From the NCBI RefSeq assembly GCF_014191305.1, contig NZ_JACHWJ010000001.1, forward strand, positions 620,001 through 684,000: a stretch of DNA of 64,000 nt, given 5' to 3'. The notes below the pieces were generated by a model, which searched no databases, was not told the origin of the DNA, and was given only the letters and a program-made list of their open reading frames with translations. The position numbers and the translations under genes were made by a program. Below, piece by piece: positions 5,119 through 12,916 of this stretch. Position 1 is the first letter of the stretch; each line of letters begins with the position of its first letter. This DNA is from Pseudoclavibacter helvolus. GTDB lineage: Bacteria; Actinomycetota; Actinomycetes; Actinomycetales; Microbacteriaceae.

Positions 5119-5855
5119 AGCTGTGCTCCGCTTTCTGAGTTGGCGGCGTCGTCGGCCGTCTGTGCGCTCTCGCGCCGTTCCGCCTCGCCCGCGACCTGCT
5201 CGACGAGGTCGCCGAGTCTCTCGAGCGTGATTCCCTCGAGGGTCGTCGTGACGAGGTGCGCGTGGTGGGCCTCGAGTGTCTGTCCGTGTGGAATGCCGAT
5301 CGTCGCGCATCCGGCCGCACGAGCGGCTTCCAGGCCGCGCTGCGAGTCTTCGACGGCGACGCAGCGATCGGGTGCGACGCCGAGCTGCTCTGCGGCGCGG
5401 AGATACGGCTCAGGATGCGGCTTGCCGTTCTCGACCTCGTCGCCGGCGATCACGATCGTGAACAGTGGGTCTTCGAGAGTTGAGACGACCGCGTCGGCGA
5501 GGATGCGCGTCGAGTTGGTGACGAGTGCGTTCGGCACGCCCGCCGCGTGCAGCGCCTCGAGGAGCTCGAGCGCACCAGGTCGCCAGTCGAGTTCCTTGAG
5601 GATGCTCGCCATGACCGTGGCATTCATGTGGTCGACGATCTCGCCGGGTTTGAGCTCAACACCCAGGCCCGCGAAGAACTCGGCCGCGTCCGCCATGCTC
5701 GACCCGACCATTCCAAGCTCCTGCTCCTCGGTGAGCGGGGGCAGGCCGTGATCGGCGAGCAGGTTGAGCTGGGCGGTCTGCCAATACTGCTCGGTGTCGA
5801 CGATGGTGCCGTCCATGTCCCACAGGACGGCGGCGGGAAGTTTCGAAGGAGCCAC
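5115..5855 (-). CDS. HAD-superfamily phosphatase/phosphomutase-like protein
   Basis: A 246-residue HAD hydrolase with all four motifs: nucleophile motif LWDMDGTIVDTE near residue 14, motif II LVTNSTR, the catalytic lysine in NGKPHPEPYL, and motif IV VAVEDSQRGLEAARAAG. The helical cap between motifs I and II is of the beta-phosphoglucomutase / phosphoglycolate phosphatase type. It should dephosphorylate a small sugar phosphate or similar metabolite; the substrate cannot be read from sequence. A GTG at 5855 (VAPSKLPAAVLWDMDGT) is the preferred start because it places motif I at the usual distance from the N-terminus, although no strong ribosome binding site precedes it. It overlaps trmI by four bases. 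Confidence 0.85.
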   Translation of the reverse strand: MAPSKLPAAVLWDMDGTIVDTEQYWQTAQLNLLADHGLPPLTEEQELGMVGSSMADAAEFFAGLGVELKPGEIVDHMNATVMASILKELDWRPGALELLEALHAAGVPNALVTNSTRILADAVVSTLEDPLFTIVIAGDEVENGKPHPEPYLRAAEQLGVAPDRCVAVEDSQRGLEAARAAGCATIGIPHGQTLEAHHAHLVTTTLEGITLERLGDLVEQVAGEAERRESAQTADDAANSESGAQL

Positions 5856-5941
5856 GGGGCGACAGTCTACGGGGCGGCAGGACGGCCACCGACGCCCGGC
5901 GCGTATCCTTGGACAACACTTCATCCATGGCGAGGAGCACG

Positions 5942-7066
5942 GTGACGGATCACAGCGAGGCCACCACACCATTTGCGCGAGGCCGACTGCTTGTGGTCGC
6001 CCTGCTCGGCTGGAACGACGCAGGGGACGCCGCGTCGAGCGCCGTCCGCGCGCTGCAGGAGGCCATCGGAGCCGACCGGCTCATCGAGGACATCGACGAC
6101 GAGTCGTTCTTCGACTACTCGATCCACCGGCCCGTCATGAGGGCCGGTACCGAGGGCGTCCGGAAGATCCAGTGGCCCAGCGTGTCGTTCAGCGGCACGC
6201 CGCTCCGTGAGGCCGAGACGGTGGATGCGCCAGCCGAGAGCACGGAGCTTGCTGCTGACGCCGGCCTGTCTGTCAGCTCCGACAACGGAGAGAACGTGTT
6301 CGTGCTGATCGGCCCGGAACCGACGCTGCGCTGGCGGAGCTTCACGAAGCAGGTCATCGATCTTTGCGAGCGGGAGGGAATCACGCGCGTCGTGCTGGTC
6401 GGCGCGCTGCTCGCGGATGTGCCCCACACCAGACCGATCACGATCTTCATGTCGAGCGACGATGCCGCTGTGCGTGACGAGCTCGATATCGATCGCAGCG
6501 AGTACGAGGGCCCGACCGGCGTGCTCTCGGCGATCGGGGAGGAAGCCCGCTCGCGGGACATGCGGGTGCTCTCGCTGTGGGCTTCGGTGCCGCACTACGC
6601 GCACCACTCCCCGTCCCCCAAGGCGACGCTCGCGCTCGTCGACCGCTTGACCGAGATCGTCGACGTCTCCATTCCTCACGGCGACCTCGTGACGGAGTCG
6701 GCCGAGTGGGAGGCCGAGGTCACCGAGGCGACGGCTCAGGACGACGAGATCGCTCAGTACGTCGGCTACCTCGAGCGGACGCGCGACATGGTCGAGGCAC
6801 CAGAAGCGTCAGGCGAGGCGATCGCCCAGGAGTTCGAGCGCTTCCTCGAGCAGGCGGCGGGCAAGAAGCCGCAGCCGGGCCCCGCAGCGTTCCCCACGGA
6901 TCTGTCCGGCACCGCGCAGCGACCGATGGGCGTCGACCGACGGACCACAGCCGACGACGAGGGGGTCGAATCGGACACCGAGTCGAGGCCCGACGAGGAT
7001 CCCGAGCCGGGCGATGGCGGAGCTGACGACCAGGACGCCGACGACGGCCACGAGCGTCCGGCCTAG
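5942..7066 (+). CDS. PAC2 family protein (proteasome assembly chaperone-like)
   Basis: A 374-residue PAC2-fold protein, recognised from LLVVALLGWNDAGDAASSA near the N-terminus, SFFDYSIHRPVM, and the GALLADVPHTRP and SIGEEA/PHYAHHSPSPKATLALVDRL segments. Actinobacterial members resemble archaeal/eukaryotic proteasome assembly chaperones, and their role in bacteria is unsettled. The start GTG at 5942 has GAGGAG four bases upstream; an ATG at 5927 in the same frame has no such signal. The last 60 residues are acidic and repetitive (DEDPEPGDGGADDQDADDG). It converges on mshC in the ancestral arrangement, and now faces the displaced mshC tail. Confidence 0.85.
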   Translation: MTDHSEATTPFARGRLLVVALLGWNDAGDAASSAVRALQEAIGADRLIEDIDDESFFDYSIHRPVMRAGTEGVRKIQWPSVSFSGTPLREAETVDAPAESTELAADAGLSVSSDNGENVFVLIGPEPTLRWRSFTKQVIDLCEREGITRVVLVGALLADVPHTRPITIFMSSDDAAVRDELDIDRSEYEGPTGVLSAIGEEARSRDMRVLSLWASVPHYAHHSPSPKATLALVDRLTEIVDVSIPHGDLVTESAEWEAEVTEATAQDDEIAQYVGYLERTRDMVEAPEASGEAIAQEFERFLEQAAGKKPQPGPAAFPTDLSGTAQRPMGVDRRTTADDEGVESDTESRPDEDPEPGDGGADDQDADDGHERPA

Positions 7067-7271
7067 GCGGCCACGCGCACGGCGGACCGCCGCGCGCGCA
7101 TCCAGCCGCCGCTAGTCGGTCGTGAGGTCCAGCCCGAGCAGGGCGTCGACGAGCGCGACGACGTCGGTGTCGCCCGCGGCAGGGGGCGTCGAGACCCACT
7201 CGTCAACGATAGCGACGACGCGAGGCGTGTCGAGGTCGTCGGCGATGGCGTCGCGCATCCGCTGGACGACG

Positions 7272-7279
7272 GCATTGCG
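7272..7279. repeat. Left target-site duplication of ISL3 element
   Basis: GCATTGCG directly abuts the left terminal repeat and is repeated exactly at 8739-8746. Eight base pairs is the usual ISL3-family target duplication. Confidence 0.95.
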
Positions 7280-7304
7280 GGCTCTTGGGACATTCGGTGG
7301 GGGT
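7280..7304. repeat. Left terminal inverted repeat of ISL3 element
   Basis: This 25-bp repeat is perfectly inverted at 8714-8738. It begins GGCTCTTGGGACATTCGG and continues with a G-rich run. Confidence 0.95.
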
Positions 7305-7394
7305 GAGGCGCGCCGGGTGATGGTTGGCGGGTAGGGGTCGAGGTCCCCGAGGATCAGTAGCGCTAACTGTCTGATCGATTCCGAGGACCTCGAC

Positions 7395-8714
7395 GTGTTT
7401 CACCCTACTTCGGGGTGCGCTTCTGCGCGCTCCACTGCCTGCCCTTGCTCGCGCTGTGACCTGTTGCTCGGCCTCGACGGGGTCCATGTTGAGGCTGTCG
7501 AGCGGGACGACGGGGTTCTGACGGTCACGGTCTCGAGCCCGACGGTGCCGACGGGTTGTCCCTCGTGCGGGGTCGTCGCGATCGGTCGTGGCAGGCGGCG
7601 TCGGGTCCTGCACGATGTCCCCAGTGTTGGGCGGGTGCGGATCGTGTGGCGGCAACGCATCTGGCAGTGCATCGATAGCAGTTGCGATCGGAAGACGTTC
7701 GTGGAGCAGGTCTCGACGCTCGTCGCTCCGCGGGGGTCGATCACGAAGCGGGCGGTGGTGTGGGCGATTGTTCAGTTGCGGCGTGAGCACGCGACGATCG
7801 CAGGTCTTGCCCGCCAACTCGGGACGTCGTGGAAGACGGTGTGGCGTGCCATCGAGCCCGAACTTCAGCGTCTCGCGGCCGATGAGTCCCGGTTCGAGAA
7901 CGTCACCACACTCGGGGTGGATGAGCACATCTGGCATCACGTCGACCCCCGCAGGCGTGGCCCGAAGGAGCTGACCGGGATGGTCGATCTCACCCGAGAT
8001 GACCGCGGAAAGACGCGGGCTAGGCTCCTCGACCTCGTGCCGGGTCGTTCCGGGAAGGCTTACGCGACCTGGCTCGCTGAGCGCGGGGACGCGTTCCGCA
8101 AGAACGTGCAGGTGGCAGCGCTGGATCCGTTCGCCGGATACATGAGCGCGATCGATGACCAGCTCGAAGATGCGACCGCGGTCCTTGACGCGTTCCACGT
8201 CGTCAAGCTCGGCACCGCCGCCGTCGACGAGGTTCGCCGCCGTGTTCAGCAAGACACCCTCGGGCATCGCGGGAGAAAGGGAGACCCGCTCTACGGCATT
8301 CAGACGATCCTCCGCGCGGGAGAGGAGAACCTGACCGAGAAGCAACGAGCCCGCCTCGACACGGCGATCGGGGCCGACCCCGCCCACATCGAGGTGTTCA
8401 TCGCGTGGCAGTGCGCGCAGGAACTCCGCTCGGCCTACCGCGCGAAGGACCTGGCCGAGGGGCGGCGGATCGCCGTGAAAGTCGCCGAGTCGTTCCATAC
8501 CTGCCCGATCCCCGAGATCGCCCGCCTGGGGCGCACACTACGACGGTGGCGTGACGCGTTCCTCAACTACTTCACCACCGCACGCGCGAACAACGGCGGC
8601 ACCGAAGCGATCAACGGGATCATCGAACTCCACCGCCGACTCGCCCGCGGCTACCGCAACCGCCACAACTACCGACTACGCATGCTCCTCGCCGCCGGCG
8701 GCCTCACCCCCTGA
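7395..8714 (+). CDS. ISL3-family transposase
   Basis: A 439-residue transposase with the ISL3 layout: an N-terminal zinc-binding segment (CPSCGVV near residue 54 and a second Cys pair around CIDSSC), a helix-turn-helix (ATIAGLARQLGTSWKTVWRAI), then the DDE nuclease (DEH in TLGVDEHIWHH, ALDPFAGY / LDAFHVVKL, and the final glutamate in NNGGTEAINGIIELHRRLARGYRN). The reading frame is intact, so the element may be active. The stop codon (8712-8714) touches the first base of the right terminal repeat. Plus-strand orientation puts it antisense to the mshC remnant. Confidence 0.96.
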   Translation: MFHPTSGCASARSTACPCSRCDLLLGLDGVHVEAVERDDGVLTVTVSSPTVPTGCPSCGVVAIGRGRRRRVLHDVPSVGRVRIVWRQRIWQCIDSSCDRKTFVEQVSTLVAPRGSITKRAVVWAIVQLRREHATIAGLARQLGTSWKTVWRAIEPELQRLAADESRFENVTTLGVDEHIWHHVDPRRRGPKELTGMVDLTRDDRGKTRARLLDLVPGRSGKAYATWLAERGDAFRKNVQVAALDPFAGYMSAIDDQLEDATAVLDAFHVVKLGTAAVDEVRRRVQQDTLGHRGRKGDPLYGIQTILRAGEENLTEKQRARLDTAIGADPAHIEVFIAWQCAQELRSAYRAKDLAEGRRIAVKVAESFHTCPIPEIARLGRTLRRWRDAFLNYFTTARANNGGTEAINGIIELHRRLARGYRNRHNYRLRMLLAAGGLTP

Positions 8715-8738
8715 CCCCCACCGAATGTCCCAAGAGCC
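8714..8738. repeat. Right terminal inverted repeat of ISL3 element
   Basis: Perfect inverse of 7280-7304. It ends GTCCCAAGAGCC next to the target duplication. Confidence 0.95.
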
Positions 8739-8746
8739 GCATTGCG
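8739..8746. repeat. Right target-site duplication of ISL3 element
   Basis: Exact copy of GCATTGCG at 7272-7279. The mshC remnant resumes immediately after it. Confidence 0.95.
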
Positions 8747-8932
8747 CTCGGGTGCCACCGTGTCGTCAGACGACCGAGCCGCGCGCCCGCGCCACTCCTG
8801 CAGGCGGACGTTCGAGCGTGCGAGCTCCTCGTCGGTCGACTCCCAGTCGCTGCGGTAGTGGTGCGAGAGCAGCGCGAGCCGGATCGCACCGGGGGCGACC
8901 CCGGCCGCGGTGAGCCGTGACTAGCGTTGCTG

Positions 8933-9226
8933 CTACCGATTGGGGAGCAGCCGGACGGAGAGTATGCAGAACCCAGGCGTCAGACCTACATCGGACACCG
9001 CACACGGCACATCATCCGACGTGATCGACGTAATTTCGACGCTGACTTGCCGCCCGGTTGCCTCAGAGAGTTGGGGATCCCACTCCAACAAACACATGAT
9101 GTCGCCCACTCTGAAGTCACGATCGTTACGTCGCAGCTCATGCACTCGATCGCCAGCTGCGATCGGGCCGAAGAAGCGCGTCCAGCTCTTGAGCTGATGC
9201 TCTACGGGTGGTCGTGGTGTGGACAT
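8933..9226 (-). CDS. DUF3850 (ASCH/PUA-like) domain protein
   Basis: A 97-residue single-domain protein. The N-terminal HQLKSWTRFFGPIAAGDRVH plus ELRRNDRDFRVGDIMCLLEW matches the DUF3850 signature (H-x-LK-x-W ... G-x-K/R-x-x-E-x-R-x-NDRDF-x-VGD). This fold is related to ASCH/PUA domains that bind RNA or modified nucleic acid, and it is frequent in phages and accessory elements. The ATG lies two bases after the stop of the upstream FAD-binding gene, so the pair is almost certainly translated together. GC content is clearly lower than that of the neighbours, pointing to transfer. It ends 15 bases from the break in the mshC remnant. The domain call is firm; its function in this pair is unknown. 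Confidence 0.8.
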   Translation of the reverse strand: MSTPRPPVEHQLKSWTRFFGPIAAGDRVHELRRNDRDFRVGDIMCLLEWDPQLSEATGRQVSVEITSITSDDVPCAVSDVGLTPGFCILSVRLLPNR

Positions 9227-9228
9227 TC

Positions 9229-11322
9229 TTATGGACTCTCAGTCTCGAGGAAGGTCGTCTGGTCCAGGTTAAGCCTTCTTAGCTGCACCTGGGGGATTGG
9301 CTCGCTGTCCAGGACCTCCAAGCTCGGCTTCGGTGATGGCGTCTCGGAGCTGCGAAGTGGCGGTGCCGACACAGGAAAAGCCGTGTTTGAGACGGCCCTC
9401 GTCCTCTGTAGCTCGGCAGAAACTGCATCCAAAGAGCCGACACACATCTGGGCAATGCGGCGTATGCGGTCCGTATCTCCAAAGAAGTCTCGGACGTCGC
9501 TATCGATGTAGAGCACGGCCACGACCGGATTTATGTTGGAGCCCTCTGCTATGCCGAGTAGGGGAAGAGCTAGGACTGACGTAACCTCGCCTGACATCTC
9601 GCGGGCATCCTTTGTAAGGTGAGCCACGAGCATGTCGCTCTGTAGATCCTTCGTGTCCGCGCCAGGGCGACTCCTTACTATCTTGCTAGTTAGATAAGCA
9701 TGTCCGATAGTCGCAAGCGTTAGTGGAAAAGTTCGTCCTGCAGTCATGCGCTCGCTGCTGACCTGAGAACCGTTGTAGTCACAACACTGTTGAAATACGA
9801 GCCTGTCGCCTATTTGTACGACTCGATGCAAGGTTATGCGCAATCGCTCCCGCTCGGGGTGTTCGAGCGAGAGGGCGCCTGCGATAGCGCCGCAAAGTGT
9901 TGCAGATACGATCTCTGTGGAGGGTGGAAGGTACTCGCGTCGCCAGTACTTTTTTGTTTCCTCGTTCGCGGGTCGTAAAGTCGTTCCAAAGTAGCCTGGC
10001 AGCCAGTAATTCTTTGTCGACTGGGGAGATGTTGAGCCGAATCTCTCTGAAGTTGATTTCCCCTTTTCCAAGCGCGCCTGTAAAGCCGGGCCTAGTACAC
10101 GCTTGATGCCGAGATCTGGCCGTGGTCCGTGTCGTATCACAACGGCATTGTCACTCACGTGTTCTTCTTGGATCAGATGATCCATCTCGCCGTGCCAGAT
10201 ACTGAAGCCGCCTGATGCGTAAAGCACCCACCCTAGGAGCTGGTTCTGGAAGGAGACGCGCCGATTGAAAAGGGACTCAAAGTCGCCATTCTTCCTCAAA
10301 TGCAAAATAGCATCGGTGTCATGGCGGAGTCGCTCGTCCATGTCGGCAATGACACGCTCACCTTCATCCGGATGCTCGGACCAAACTCGCCGTAGTTCGG
10401 AAATTACGGACACGCCCTCGATGGCAGTCTGCTGTACGCCTTGGAGCGCGCTCAGTAGTGCAGGCTGGCGACCGAAGAGCTCACCGAGGATTCGATCCTG
10501 GCGAAAATCCGAAATTCTAATTCGGAACAGATCGATCCACCCACCGTCTCCGGCTCCGGAGACAACGTACGTGCGGCGCCGACGACGCAGAGCGGGCTGA
10601 GCCAGAGTTTCATTTCTCCAGTAAGACATGGCTCCGTCGGTCTCAACTCCGAAACCAACGGCGAGGATGATCACGTCGAATTCTTCTCGCAGTCCTCGTT
10701 GAGGGCGGTTGCCCTCCGGTACTGATGGTTTCCAAGTCTTTCGTTGCTGACCGATCCATTCGGCCGCAAGTGCAGTGCGGCCACTTTGTTCCTGAACGTC
10801 GACTTTAACGGGGGCTGTGTTGCAGAAAAGGCGAACCTTAGCGTATCCAGCGTCCTTCTCGAGATCCTCCCACGCGGTCTTGACTTGAACCACCACATCG
10901 CTCGCTCGCGCGGCCGTCCAATTAAGAACCGGCAGTCCAGCACTATGGGCCGAACTACCGTCACGTGGCCACTCGTAGATATGCGGATGAAGCCAGCGTG
11001 TATCGTTACCGTGCTGAAGGGGCAACACTGAGTCGCGTTGCTCCAATAGTGTGACTTCCACATTGGCTTCTTTGCTGATCAGGCCAGCGGCAACGGTTAG
11101 GCCCGCGAATCCTGCTCCAATAATCGCAATTCGTGTGGTTGAGTCGATGTTGACGATTCCGGTCTCGGTTAGCGCCCAGGCAAGGTTCAGTGCACGCGTC
11201 TGTTGCGAAAGGACAGTCACCGAGCTGTCCGACAAGCCAATCGCGAAAACATTTAGTCCCGCGTCGAGACGGTACGTGTCGAGCACTGCGGCAGCATTCG
11301 GTTCGGCACTTCTCGGGTCCAT
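9229..11322 (-). CDS. FAD/NAD(P)-binding protein with C-terminal GAF-like domain
   Basis: A 697-residue protein of unassigned function. A short N-terminal module (residues 1-60, with SQQTRALNLAWAL) precedes a Rossmann FAD-binding motif RIAIIGAGFAGL (64-75). FDVIILAVGFG (215-225) and a second dinucleotide motif VVSGAGDGG (253-261) complete a two-dinucleotide oxidoreductase-like core. After a helical linker, residues about 490-635 resemble a GAF sensor domain (RITLHRVV, LVFQQCCDYNG, GRTFPLTLATIGHAYLTSK, VLALPLLGI ... VVAVLYIDSD). There is no signal peptide or membrane segment, so it is cytoplasmic. The coupling to a DUF3850 protein, the low GC and the setting between two mshC ends mark it as horizontally acquired. 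Redox or nucleotide sensing is an inference; a defence or stress role is a hypothesis only. Confidence 0.72.
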   Translation of the reverse strand: MDPRSAEPNAAAVLDTYRLDAGLNVFAIGLSDSSVTVLSQQTRALNLAWALTETGIVNIDSTTRIAIIGAGFAGLTVAAGLISKEANVEVTLLEQRDSVLPLQHGNDTRWLHPHIYEWPRDGSSAHSAGLPVLNWTAARASDVVVQVKTAWEDLEKDAGYAKVRLFCNTAPVKVDVQEQSGRTALAAEWIGQQRKTWKPSVPEGNRPQRGLREEFDVIILAVGFGVETDGAMSYWRNETLAQPALRRRRRTYVVSGAGDGGWIDLFRIRISDFRQDRILGELFGRQPALLSALQGVQQTAIEGVSVISELRRVWSEHPDEGERVIADMDERLRHDTDAILHLRKNGDFESLFNRRVSFQNQLLGWVLYASGGFSIWHGEMDHLIQEEHVSDNAVVIRHGPRPDLGIKRVLGPALQARLEKGKSTSERFGSTSPQSTKNYWLPGYFGTTLRPANEETKKYWRREYLPPSTEIVSATLCGAIAGALSLEHPERERLRITLHRVVQIGDRLVFQQCCDYNGSQVSSERMTAGRTFPLTLATIGHAYLTSKIVRSRPGADTKDLQSDMLVAHLTKDAREMSGEVTSVLALPLLGIAEGSNINPVVAVLYIDSDVRDFFGDTDRIRRIAQMCVGSLDAVSAELQRTRAVSNTAFPVSAPPLRSSETPSPKPSLEVLDSEPIPQVQLRRLNLDQTTFLETESP

Positions 11323-11328
11323 CAGTCG

Positions 11329-11334
11329 ACTCTA
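11329..11334 (-). promoter_or_regulatory. Possible -10 box of the FAD/GAF-DUF3850 operon
   Basis: On the minus strand TAGAGT lies six bases before the ATG of the FAD/GAF gene, a spacing that would give a leaderless mRNA. No convincing -35 hexamer is visible and no ribosome binding site precedes the ATG. Confidence 0.35.
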
Positions 11335-11596
11335 GCGTGGAATCTCGCCTGCCGACCTGCACTGTGGAAGGACGCGACGATCAGCAGATCTGCAGGGGGT
11401 CCGGCTGGCTGAGGGCGCTGACGCTGATACTCGATGCTTCCCTCATCGTTTAATCACATGCGTCGAGTGTGTTCCTCGACTGCCGATCTGTGATCCGACC
11501 GAAGTCGAAAGAGACCCGGTTCATCAGAGAGCTGAGTGCAGAACGTCTGATTCTGAGGTTCGGCGCTGCAAGCCGGCGGCTTCAGACCCGAACCAT

Positions 11597-12916
11597 CTAC
11601 TCGGACCTCGTGAGGTCCAGCCCGAGCAGGGCGTCGACGAGCGCGACGACGTCGGTGTCGCCCGCGGCAGGGGGCGTCGAGACCCACTCGTCAACGATCG
11701 CGACGACGCGAGGCGTGTCGAGGTCGTCCGCGATGGCTTCCCGCATCCGCACGACAAACGAGTTCTGCTCAGCCGGGAGCGTGCCCTCAACGGATCGGGC
11801 CGCCCGCTCTCGCCACTCCTGCAGGCGGACGCTGGAGCGTGCGAGCTCCTCGTCGGTCCACTCCCAGTCGCTGCGGTAGTGGTGGGAGAGCAGTGCGAGG
11901 CGAATCGCCATCGGGTCGACGCCATCGGCCGTCAGCCGAGAGACGAGCACCAGGTTGCCGAGGGACTTCGACATCTTCGTGCCGTCGTAGGCGATGAGAC
12001 CGGCGTGCGCGTAGGTCCGCGCGAAGTCCGAGGTCGAGCCGCTCCCGCCAGGGGTGACGAGCGACATTGCGTGCGCAGCCGAGAGCTCGTGGTGCGGGAA
12101 ACGGAGGTCGCGTCCGCCGCCCTGCACCGAGATGGGTGCCCCGAGGGCCCGCGTCGCGATCACCGAGCACTCGATGTGCCAGCCGGGGCGGCCGAGGCCG
12201 ACTGCGCTCTCGAAGGCCGGCTCCCCCGCCCGAGCGCTGCGCCAGAGCAGCGGGTCAAAAGCGCCGCGCTTGCCGTCGCGGTCAGGGTCTCCCCCGAACT
12301 CGACGAACGCCGCCTCCATCTCCGCGGCCGAGTAGCCGGACACGTCGCCCATGGTCCAGTCGCTTGCCGCCTCGGCGGCCGCGACGTCGTAGTACACGTC
12401 GCCGAGCTCGGTGACGGCCGCTGGCTGCGCGTCAGTGGCGACCGCGACCCGATAGGCGAGCCCGGACTCGATGAGCGCCGCGATCGCCTCACCGGTCTCG
12501 ACGATCGTGTCCTGCACCCGCACGTAGGAGTCCGGAGGGAGTACGCGCAGCGCTGCCATGTCTGAGCGGAAGAGGTCGGTCTGCGATGTGGCGATCTCCT
12601 GCCAGTCGCGCCCCGTCTTCGCGGCACGCTCGAGCAGTGGGTCGTCGACGTCGGTGATGTTCTGCGCGTAGCGGACCTCGAGGCCCGCGTCCCGCCAGGC
12701 GCGGCCCAGCGTATCGAAGGCGACATAGGTCGCCGCGTGCCCCAGGTGCGTCGCGTCGTATGGCGTGATACCGCAGACGTAGAGTGTCGCGACGCCGTCT
12801 GGGGTGACGGTGTCCTGCACGCGACCGCTCGCGGAGTCGTAGACCCGGATCGCACCACCGCCGCTGCCACTTACCGAGGGGACGGGAGGAATGGGCCACG
12901 AGGGAACGGTTCGCAC
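11597..12916 (-). CDS. mshC: L-cysteine:GlcN-Ins ligase MshC (mycothiol synthesis)
   Basis: A 439-residue class I cysteinyl-tRNA-synthetase-like ligase. MshC joins cysteine to 1D-myo-inosityl-2-amino-2-deoxy-glucopyranoside in mycothiol biosynthesis using ATP. Visible hallmarks are TLYVCGITPYDATHLGHA (zinc Cys and HIGH-like motif, about residues 44-61), GRPGWHIECSVIA (second metal-ligand region), FPHHELSAAHA and KMSKS near residue 325. The start is GTG at 12916, giving the usual N-terminal PIPPVPS segment. The 3' 340 bases are duplicated at 7112-8917, and the reading here is complete (ends GLDLTRSE). The gene is functional by sequence, but its C-terminal third may have been replaced by the incoming element. 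Confidence 0.94.
   Translation of the reverse strand: MRTVPSWPIPPVPSVSGSGGGAIRVYDSASGRVQDTVTPDGVATLYVCGITPYDATHLGHAATYVAFDTLGRAWRDAGLEVRYAQNITDVDDPLLERAAKTGRDWQEIATSQTDLFRSDMAALRVLPPDSYVRVQDTIVETGEAIAALIESGLAYRVAVATDAQPAAVTELGDVYYDVAAAEAASDWTMGDVSGYSAAEMEAAFVEFGGDPDRDGKRGAFDPLLWRSARAGEPAFESAVGLGRPGWHIECSVIATRALGAPISVQGGGRDLRFPHHELSAAHAMSLVTPGGSGSTSDFARTYAHAGLIAYDGTKMSKSLGNLVLVSRLTADGVDPMAIRLALLSHHYRSDWEWTDEELARSSVRLQEWRERAARSVEGTLPAEQNSFVVRMREAIADDLDTPRVVAIVDEWVSTPPAAGDTDVVALVDALLGLDLTRSE

Follow-up and report, generated by a model that had tools for sequence, protein, structure and literature searches.

The window analysed here is a 64,000-nucleotide stretch of the Pseudoclavibacter helvolus genome (contig NZ_JACHWJ010000001.1, positions 620,001 to 684,000), in which a two-gene accessory module separates mshC from a PAC2-family gene (hereafter PAC2). 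The module encodes an FAD/Rossmann protein and a DUF3850 protein, and the 3' end of mshC occurs on both sides of it, once in the intact gene and once as a truncated copy that adjoins PAC2 and is interrupted by an insertion sequence (IS) of the ISL3 family (Table 1).

Two copies of the mshC end

The duplicated mshC end spans about 331 bases. Two direct repeats pair the partial copy with the intact gene, 7120-7267 with 11608-11755 at 96% identity and 8746-8920 with 11767-11941 at 80%, and besides these two pairs the 64-kb window holds no direct repeat of at least 90 bases. When compared with the rest of the window, the intact end gave matches with blastn (E = 1e-66 and 8e-43) and tblastn (E = 4e-27 and 5e-25), so that the two mshC ends proposed in a preliminary description of this DNA are confirmed by all three approaches. 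That description had counted 339 gapless bases; the alignment is indeed ungapped, and its length is about 331 bases (11608-11938 against 7112-7279 plus 8747-8917, minus the final few), as about 11 bases at the mshC stop codon do not align cleanly between the copies. The sharp end of homology that it placed at 8917/8918 in the partial copy holds by alignment. The intact gene is a true mshC, scoring 531.1 bits against TIGR03447 (cut-off, 485.1).

Divergence between the two copies is uneven, with 98.2% identity over 11608-11716, 81.7% over 11717-11896 and 69.0% over 11897-11938. The stretch 11608-11716 is a near-identical duplicate of the displaced copy, and the remainder is a different allele. 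This pattern also bears on whether the locus is an assembly artefact in which DNA of two strains was chimerically joined at mshC, an idea to which the 12 contigs and 2.04% estimated contamination of the host assembly lend something. We regard it as very improbable: the copies differ (98/82/69%) and so would not collapse together, the partial copy contains an IS with a clean target duplication and the locus is internal to a contig that reaches at least 1.44 Mb.

The IS had been assigned to 7280-8746. The element is there, with its true end at 8738, and the next eight bases are its target duplication (GCATTGCG, at 7272-7279 and 8739-8746). About a dozen relatives of this IS lie elsewhere in the genome (80-100% identity), and because one further full-length copy is 100% identical, the insertion into the dead mshC copy is probably recent.

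Small inverted repeats were seen by eye at both junctions and may be due to chance. At the module/intact-mshC junction (11603-11618), 7-base inverted arms (GGACCTC / GAGGTCC) surround two bases, and an octamer at the native mshC stop recurs in inverted form near 8917, at the other junction. They were set aside as a mechanism.

Table 1. Features of the mshC-PAC2 locus, in window coordinates
Feature	Coordinates	Strand	Basis and remarks
PAC2-family gene	5909..7066	+	Pfam PF09754, 1.6e-49
Truncated second mshC 3' end, part nearer PAC2	7112..7279	-	Repeat and alignment
ISL3-family IS within the partial mshC copy	7280..8738		29-bp inverted ends, 7280-7308 / 8710-8738
ISL3 transposase open reading frame	7395-8714	+	Pfam DDE_Tnp_ISL3, 5.3e-52
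Truncated second mshC 3' end, part nearer module	8747..8917	-	Homology stops at 8917/8918
DUF3850 (ASCH-like) gene, second in operon	8933..9226	-	PF12961, 2.8e-17
FAD/Rossmann protein, 697 amino acids, N-half LmuA-related	9229..11322	-	Pfam DAO, 1.5e-8
Module DNA upstream of the FAD gene, to the mshC stop	11323..11596		G+C 58.7% over 11300-11599
Intact mshC	11597..12916	-	TIGR03447; 11608-11716 of displaced-copy type, 11717-11896 of G006 type

An insertion between core genes of mixed ancestry

Our genus sample comprised 10 species genomes, in which the relatives are labelled G001-G009. In the four nearest, PAC2 and mshC are convergent neighbours separated by 48 bp (G006), 60 bp (G001), 71 bp (G004) and 42 bp (G007). 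Three of the other five have a gap below 100 bp (G005, G003 and G009), and the remaining two carry other inserts (1853 bp in G002, 1290 bp in G008). A wider set of 80 other loci was partly hand-picked from mshC matches, with no random choice; PAC2 lies convergently downstream of mshC in 75 of them and was not found in five. The interval between the two genes exceeds 500 bp in 11 of the 75, with PAC2 ends extended mechanically, a rule that also yields 10 negative values (overlaps or artefacts) and leaves L129 ambiguous (65 bp by the rule, 1966 bp to where the PAC2 match ends) and outside the 11. One open reading frame (ORF) was scanned from each of nine loci with more than 500 bp, plus L129. 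These encode an alpha/beta hydrolase (L024), a histidine kinase (L130), a methyltransferase (L133), a DUF222-HNH protein (L177) and AAA_18 proteins (L156, L172), and four had no match (L022, L129, L131, L175). The mshC-PAC2 junction thus accepts genes in other genera too.

A second mshC fragment, searched for by tblastn over about 2.5-7.1 kb downstream, was present in none of the 80 other loci, with the window as the single positive (1/81), and the module DNA (8918-11607) found no match in 117 other relatives. Given the empty junctions, the lack of a second fragment and the lack of a module match, the insertion between PAC2 and mshC that the preliminary description proposed is real and is lineage-specific among the genomes seen; that description had also held that insertion with gene-end replacement would be unlikely if all relatives carried the partial copy, which was seen in 0/80. 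The module, at 53-60% G+C between flanks of 63-74%, is foreign by composition and was probably acquired horizontally.

The flanking genes are of mixed ancestry. Across some 24 kb of background, the window has its highest identity with G006 (88.6%), followed by G001 and G004 (85.8% each) and G007 (84.7%), which makes G006 the nearest (sister) among the genomes compared; G001 and G004 share 93.9% identity. The PAC2 body (about 5780-6937) is 96-98% like G006, far above background. From 6943 onward the sequence is of G001/G004 type, through the end of PAC2 and the spacer to the far end of the displaced mshC copy: 105 of 112 typed sites in 6945-8917 (IS left out) are of that type, against 16 of 109 in 5780-6944. 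Across the module the picture reverses within mshC. The intact gene over 11608-11716 is 98.2% identical to the displaced copy, 92.7% to G001, 89.9% to G004 and 78.0% to G006, and over 11717-11896 it is 97.2% like G006 (G001, 81.1%; G004, 80.6%). The displaced copy, over the stretch matching 11717-11896, is 90.0% like G001, 92.8% like G004 and 79.4% like G006. Best-fit ancestry splits fall at 6937/6943 in PAC2 (Fisher p = 1e-37) and at 11711/11729 in mshC (9e-7), neither of which was reached in 500 shuffles, and none of 446 overlapping 400-bp background windows is at least 90% G001/G004-type (highest, 81%).

A segment that is 78-79% like G006 yet 90-93% like G001/G004, in a genome whose background is nearest to G006, does not fit plain vertical inheritance. 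It is most simply read as part of a single incoming block that runs from about 6940 to about 11720 and comprises the PAC2 end, the displaced mshC end, the module and the final ~110 bases of mshC. The partial copy, next to PAC2, is the old, displaced mshC end, as the preliminary description had it, because it shares one unbroken ancestry with the spacer and the end of PAC2. That the intact end is a separate replacement brought by an element, as had also been supposed, is not supported, since its last 109 scored bases are of displaced-copy type (98.2%) and the stretch upstream is G006-type DNA (97.2%). The expectation that the partial copy would be closer to relatives than the intact end was borne out over 11717-11896 against G001/G004 (90.0/92.8% versus 81.1/80.6%) and reversed against G006 (79.4% versus 97.2%).

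The near-identity of 11608-11716 to the displaced copy could instead reflect gene conversion between the two copies within one genome. They lie about 4.5 kb apart, and gene conversion between repeats at such spacing is expected; we nevertheless find this improbable, as it leaves the PAC2 ancestry switch at 6937/6943 unexplained.

How the module may have arrived

We think it probable that a horizontally acquired operon settled at the mshC/PAC2 junction through a one-sided founding integration and was afterwards transferred between species by homologous recombination, with no integrase needed. A G001/G004-like strain is probably where the duplication arose, because the parts of both copies that lie inside the block are nearly identical, and it is in such a strain that the one-sided integration would have occurred. 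A fragment carrying part of mshC together with the module would have recombined inside mshC, either by a single crossover after circularising, which yields an intact gene followed by the module and a truncated end, or by homology-facilitated illegitimate recombination (HFIR), which yields the identical layout. The original 3' end, cut at 8917/8918, would have been left on the PAC2 side. The finished allele would then have moved between species by homologous recombination at PAC2 and mshC, and the ISL3 element would later have split the dead copy. What is found at the far junction, a truncated duplicate of the anchor gene mshC, is as a one-sided insertion expects. Circularisation with a single crossover, and HFIR at very low frequency, are reported from Escherichia coli (PMC3240628), and HFIR is proposed for Vibrio type VI secretion system (T6SS) effector-immunity arrays (PMC5361080).

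The preliminary description had offered three movers: a relic element, one acting in trans, or homologous recombination. The last is the sole option with positive evidence, in the ancestry switches of the flanks, and the remark that no integrase is present stands, neither of the two module genes being a recombinase. Of the mechanism outlined there, insertion, a displaced old end and homologous recombination are retained and the element-borne replacement end is given up.

A different order of events, which we find doubtful but worth weighing, would make the module and duplication older in the lineage, with G006-type DNA subsequently replacing PAC2 and mshC 11717-11896 in two patches from a single transfer, so that the G001/G004-type block is the recipient. 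Both patches are about 96-98% like G006, and discontinuous nearby donor patches and mosaic outcomes are reported for natural transformation (PMC13344027). However, the G001/G004-type block is itself foreign in a genome whose nearest relative among those compared is G006, so that an import is needed anyway, and a module-less donor must convert both flanks yet spare the module.

A further rival is an integrase-borne island that inserts at the 3' end of mshC and supplies a replacement end, with its integrase lost or acting in trans and the native end as its far boundary. It would account for the position of the old end beyond the module and for a gene kept intact. It is nonetheless an improbable explanation. 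The module is two genes with no recombinase, where a gene-end-targeting genomic island is expected to carry an integrase near one end; the candidate core positions 8917 and 11938 differ in sequence; a displaced mshC end was found by tblastn in 0/80 other loci; over its last 109 scored bases the intact end is of displaced-end type rather than a divergent, element-borne end; and no flanking DNA repeat at E <= 1e-4 surrounds the operon in nine related loci described below. That difference between the two candidate core positions is the present state, and overwriting has altered the intact copy there. The idea of a site-specific island at mshC was dropped for want of a recombinase, a shared core or a second tblastn example in the 80 loci.

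Several points weigh against one-sided integration followed by interspecies transfer. No donor strain with a G001/G004-type module allele was found, and the order of events could be otherwise, with G006-type patches overlying an older module allele. The founding event is inferred rather than observed, and any microhomology at 8917/8918 needs the donor sequence; with the upper intact copy overwritten, an att-like core at 8917/8918 is possible. The layout is read from the assembly alone. The switches are not perfectly clean: 8 of 52 typed sites lie on the wrong side in mshC (4/25 + 4/27), as do 14/107 and 7/114 in PAC2, and 2 of the 446 background windows are at most 10% G001/G004-type, so that G006-like stretches exist elsewhere. 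In many other loci, blastn also finds weak similarity to the locus's own mshC end over short stretches of at most 82 bases (lowest E, 6e-6).

The route itself is already known, and the locus is a clear new example of it. As in the integrase-less hotspots exchanged by homologous recombination that PMC5635113 describes, accessory genes sit between two conserved core genes, no recombinase is present (the IS lies outside the module, in the dead copy), recombination has left traces in the flanking core genes (here, the switches in PAC2 and mshC) and the content of the junction varies (more than 500 bp in 11/75 loci). The window differs from those hotspots in the sharp best-fit limits of its block (6937/6943 and 11711/11729) and in a founding event whose trace is a truncated duplicate of one flanking gene. 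With the Vibrio T6SS arrays (PMC5361080) and HFIR in E. coli (PMC3240628), it shares homology at a single anchor gene, foreign cargo and an old end shifted downstream; the Vibrio arrays differ in retaining an immunity gene, whereas the window keeps a dead fragment of a housekeeping gene.

The cargo operon and its possible role in defence

The N-half of the FAD protein is related to the effector of the Lamassu defence system: residues 13-368 match PADLOC LmuA (1.8e-66) over profile positions 7-349 of 827. The preliminary label 'FAD-GAF' was right as to its FAD/Rossmann half, and no GAF domain is among the Pfam matches listed. A DUF3850 profile built from 10 relatives matches 3iuw (1.4e-11), a structure that we take to be ASCH-like.

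A pattern-based scan of 84,980 genomes for relatives of the FAD protein gave 25 loci. In seven, the FAD gene is followed directly by a DUF3850 gene (L071-L076 and L078), two encode a full-length FAD protein without DUF3850 (L077, L079), one is truncated where its contig stops (L080) and 15 match the N-domain only. Plasmid records added 28 matches to the FAD protein, all below 60% identity, of which we take 27 to be alphaproteobacterial and one to be from Paraburkholderia; among the three regions opened, L068 and L069 carry the DUF3850 gene and L070, matched in pieces, does not, bringing the operon loci to nine (7 genomic + 2 plasmid). The FAD protein and DUF3850 thus form a conserved operon, otherwise found in Alphaproteobacteria. 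In eight of the nine related operons, L076 being the exception, the third gene encodes a P-loop kinase of about 184 amino acids (AAA_18 in the two scanned). The AAA_18 proteins at the L156 and L172 mshC-PAC2 junctions belong to the same Pfam family, probably by coincidence. A tree built on residues 1-430 sets the 12 full-length or operon proteins apart from four N-domain-only relatives (100/100); in it, the end branch of the window protein measures 1.36 against a median of 0.39, with no resolution of its position in the clade. At L077 (5965-8069, Roseomonas) and L079 (5788-7991, a Sphingomonas metagenome-assembled genome), the FAD half and the C-half are two adjacent ORFs, with no DUF3850 match and an opposite-strand ORF of about 1560 amino acids nearby.

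Nearer sources were sought as well. The FAD protein was found in 0/397 other genomes of the family (E <= 1e-10), and its profile in 0/395 other genomes of a phylum sample (E <= 1e-20, two candidates scored per genome), so a close actinobacterial donor was dropped. A phage or plasmid source was likewise dropped, with no match of the module proteins to 50,697 phage records and plasmid matches below 60% identity. At the DNA level, plasmid records matched 165 bases of the FAD gene (Rhizobium WSM1274, 71%) and 59 bases in Nonomuraea that fall within the mshC part of the query. An mshC is annotated on a 51-kb Corynebacterium striatum plasmid (NC_004939.1, 11738-12829), so mshC can be plasmid-borne. 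Two viral contigs hold FAD protein relatives plus DUF3850, and the viral contigs gave no confirmed relative of mshC. In L195 (5001-8053), on a contig classed as viral in IMG/VR and possibly a prophage or island, FAD, DUF3850 and kinase genes occur together.

Ten neighbour proteins from eight of the nine related loci were scored singly, and five of them, in four loci, match PADLOC defence models at 1e-10: an HNH model (L069), ZacC (L074), methyl-directed restriction endonuclease and MzaB (L076) and dCTPase (L078). The five from L071, L072, L073 and L075 had no PADLOC match. In a neighbour tally that used 57 of 69 neighbour ORFs, the families listed (25 of 87) include a type IIG restriction-modification protein, MTase_II, a second dCTPase and an LmuA match, not tied to particular loci. 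On the strength of the LmuA match, the conserved operon and the defence-type neighbours, defence is our best guess for its function, and the sequences suggest that the operon is likely a phage-defence cassette. The FAD/Rossmann half might act as the effector, with the C-half and the ASCH-like protein as sensor or regulator. Two points count against this: the window module lacks the kinase gene of 8/9 related operons, and the neighbour scan had no control set of random loci.

The likeness to Lamassu stops at the effector. A double-Rossmann dehydrogenase class is named among LmuA effectors in PMC10586767. The window protein shares the LmuA effector domain and does not match the C-terminal part, its match ending at profile position 349; the SMC-like LmuB is not in the two-gene module, where the partner is DUF3850; and the full-length proteins form a group separate from the four N-domain-only relatives. 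Tentatively, the cargo could be a new SMC-independent defence system built on a Lamassu-type double-Rossmann FAD effector that is fused to another C-terminal domain and has an ASCH-like DUF3850 protein as its partner, joined in most versions from Alphaproteobacteria by a small P-loop kinase. It would have reached an actinobacterium and would spread there between species by homologous recombination at mshC/PAC2. We found no description of the FAD-protein/DUF3850 operon in the literature searched, which is no proof of its absence from print, and the system may be undescribed.

Overall, the founding scar in mshC and the sharp ancestry switches in both flanking core genes make this locus a readable record of how a cassette without a mobility gene can come into a genome and cross between species, and the conserved FAD-protein/DUF3850 operon that it carries is open to direct testing.

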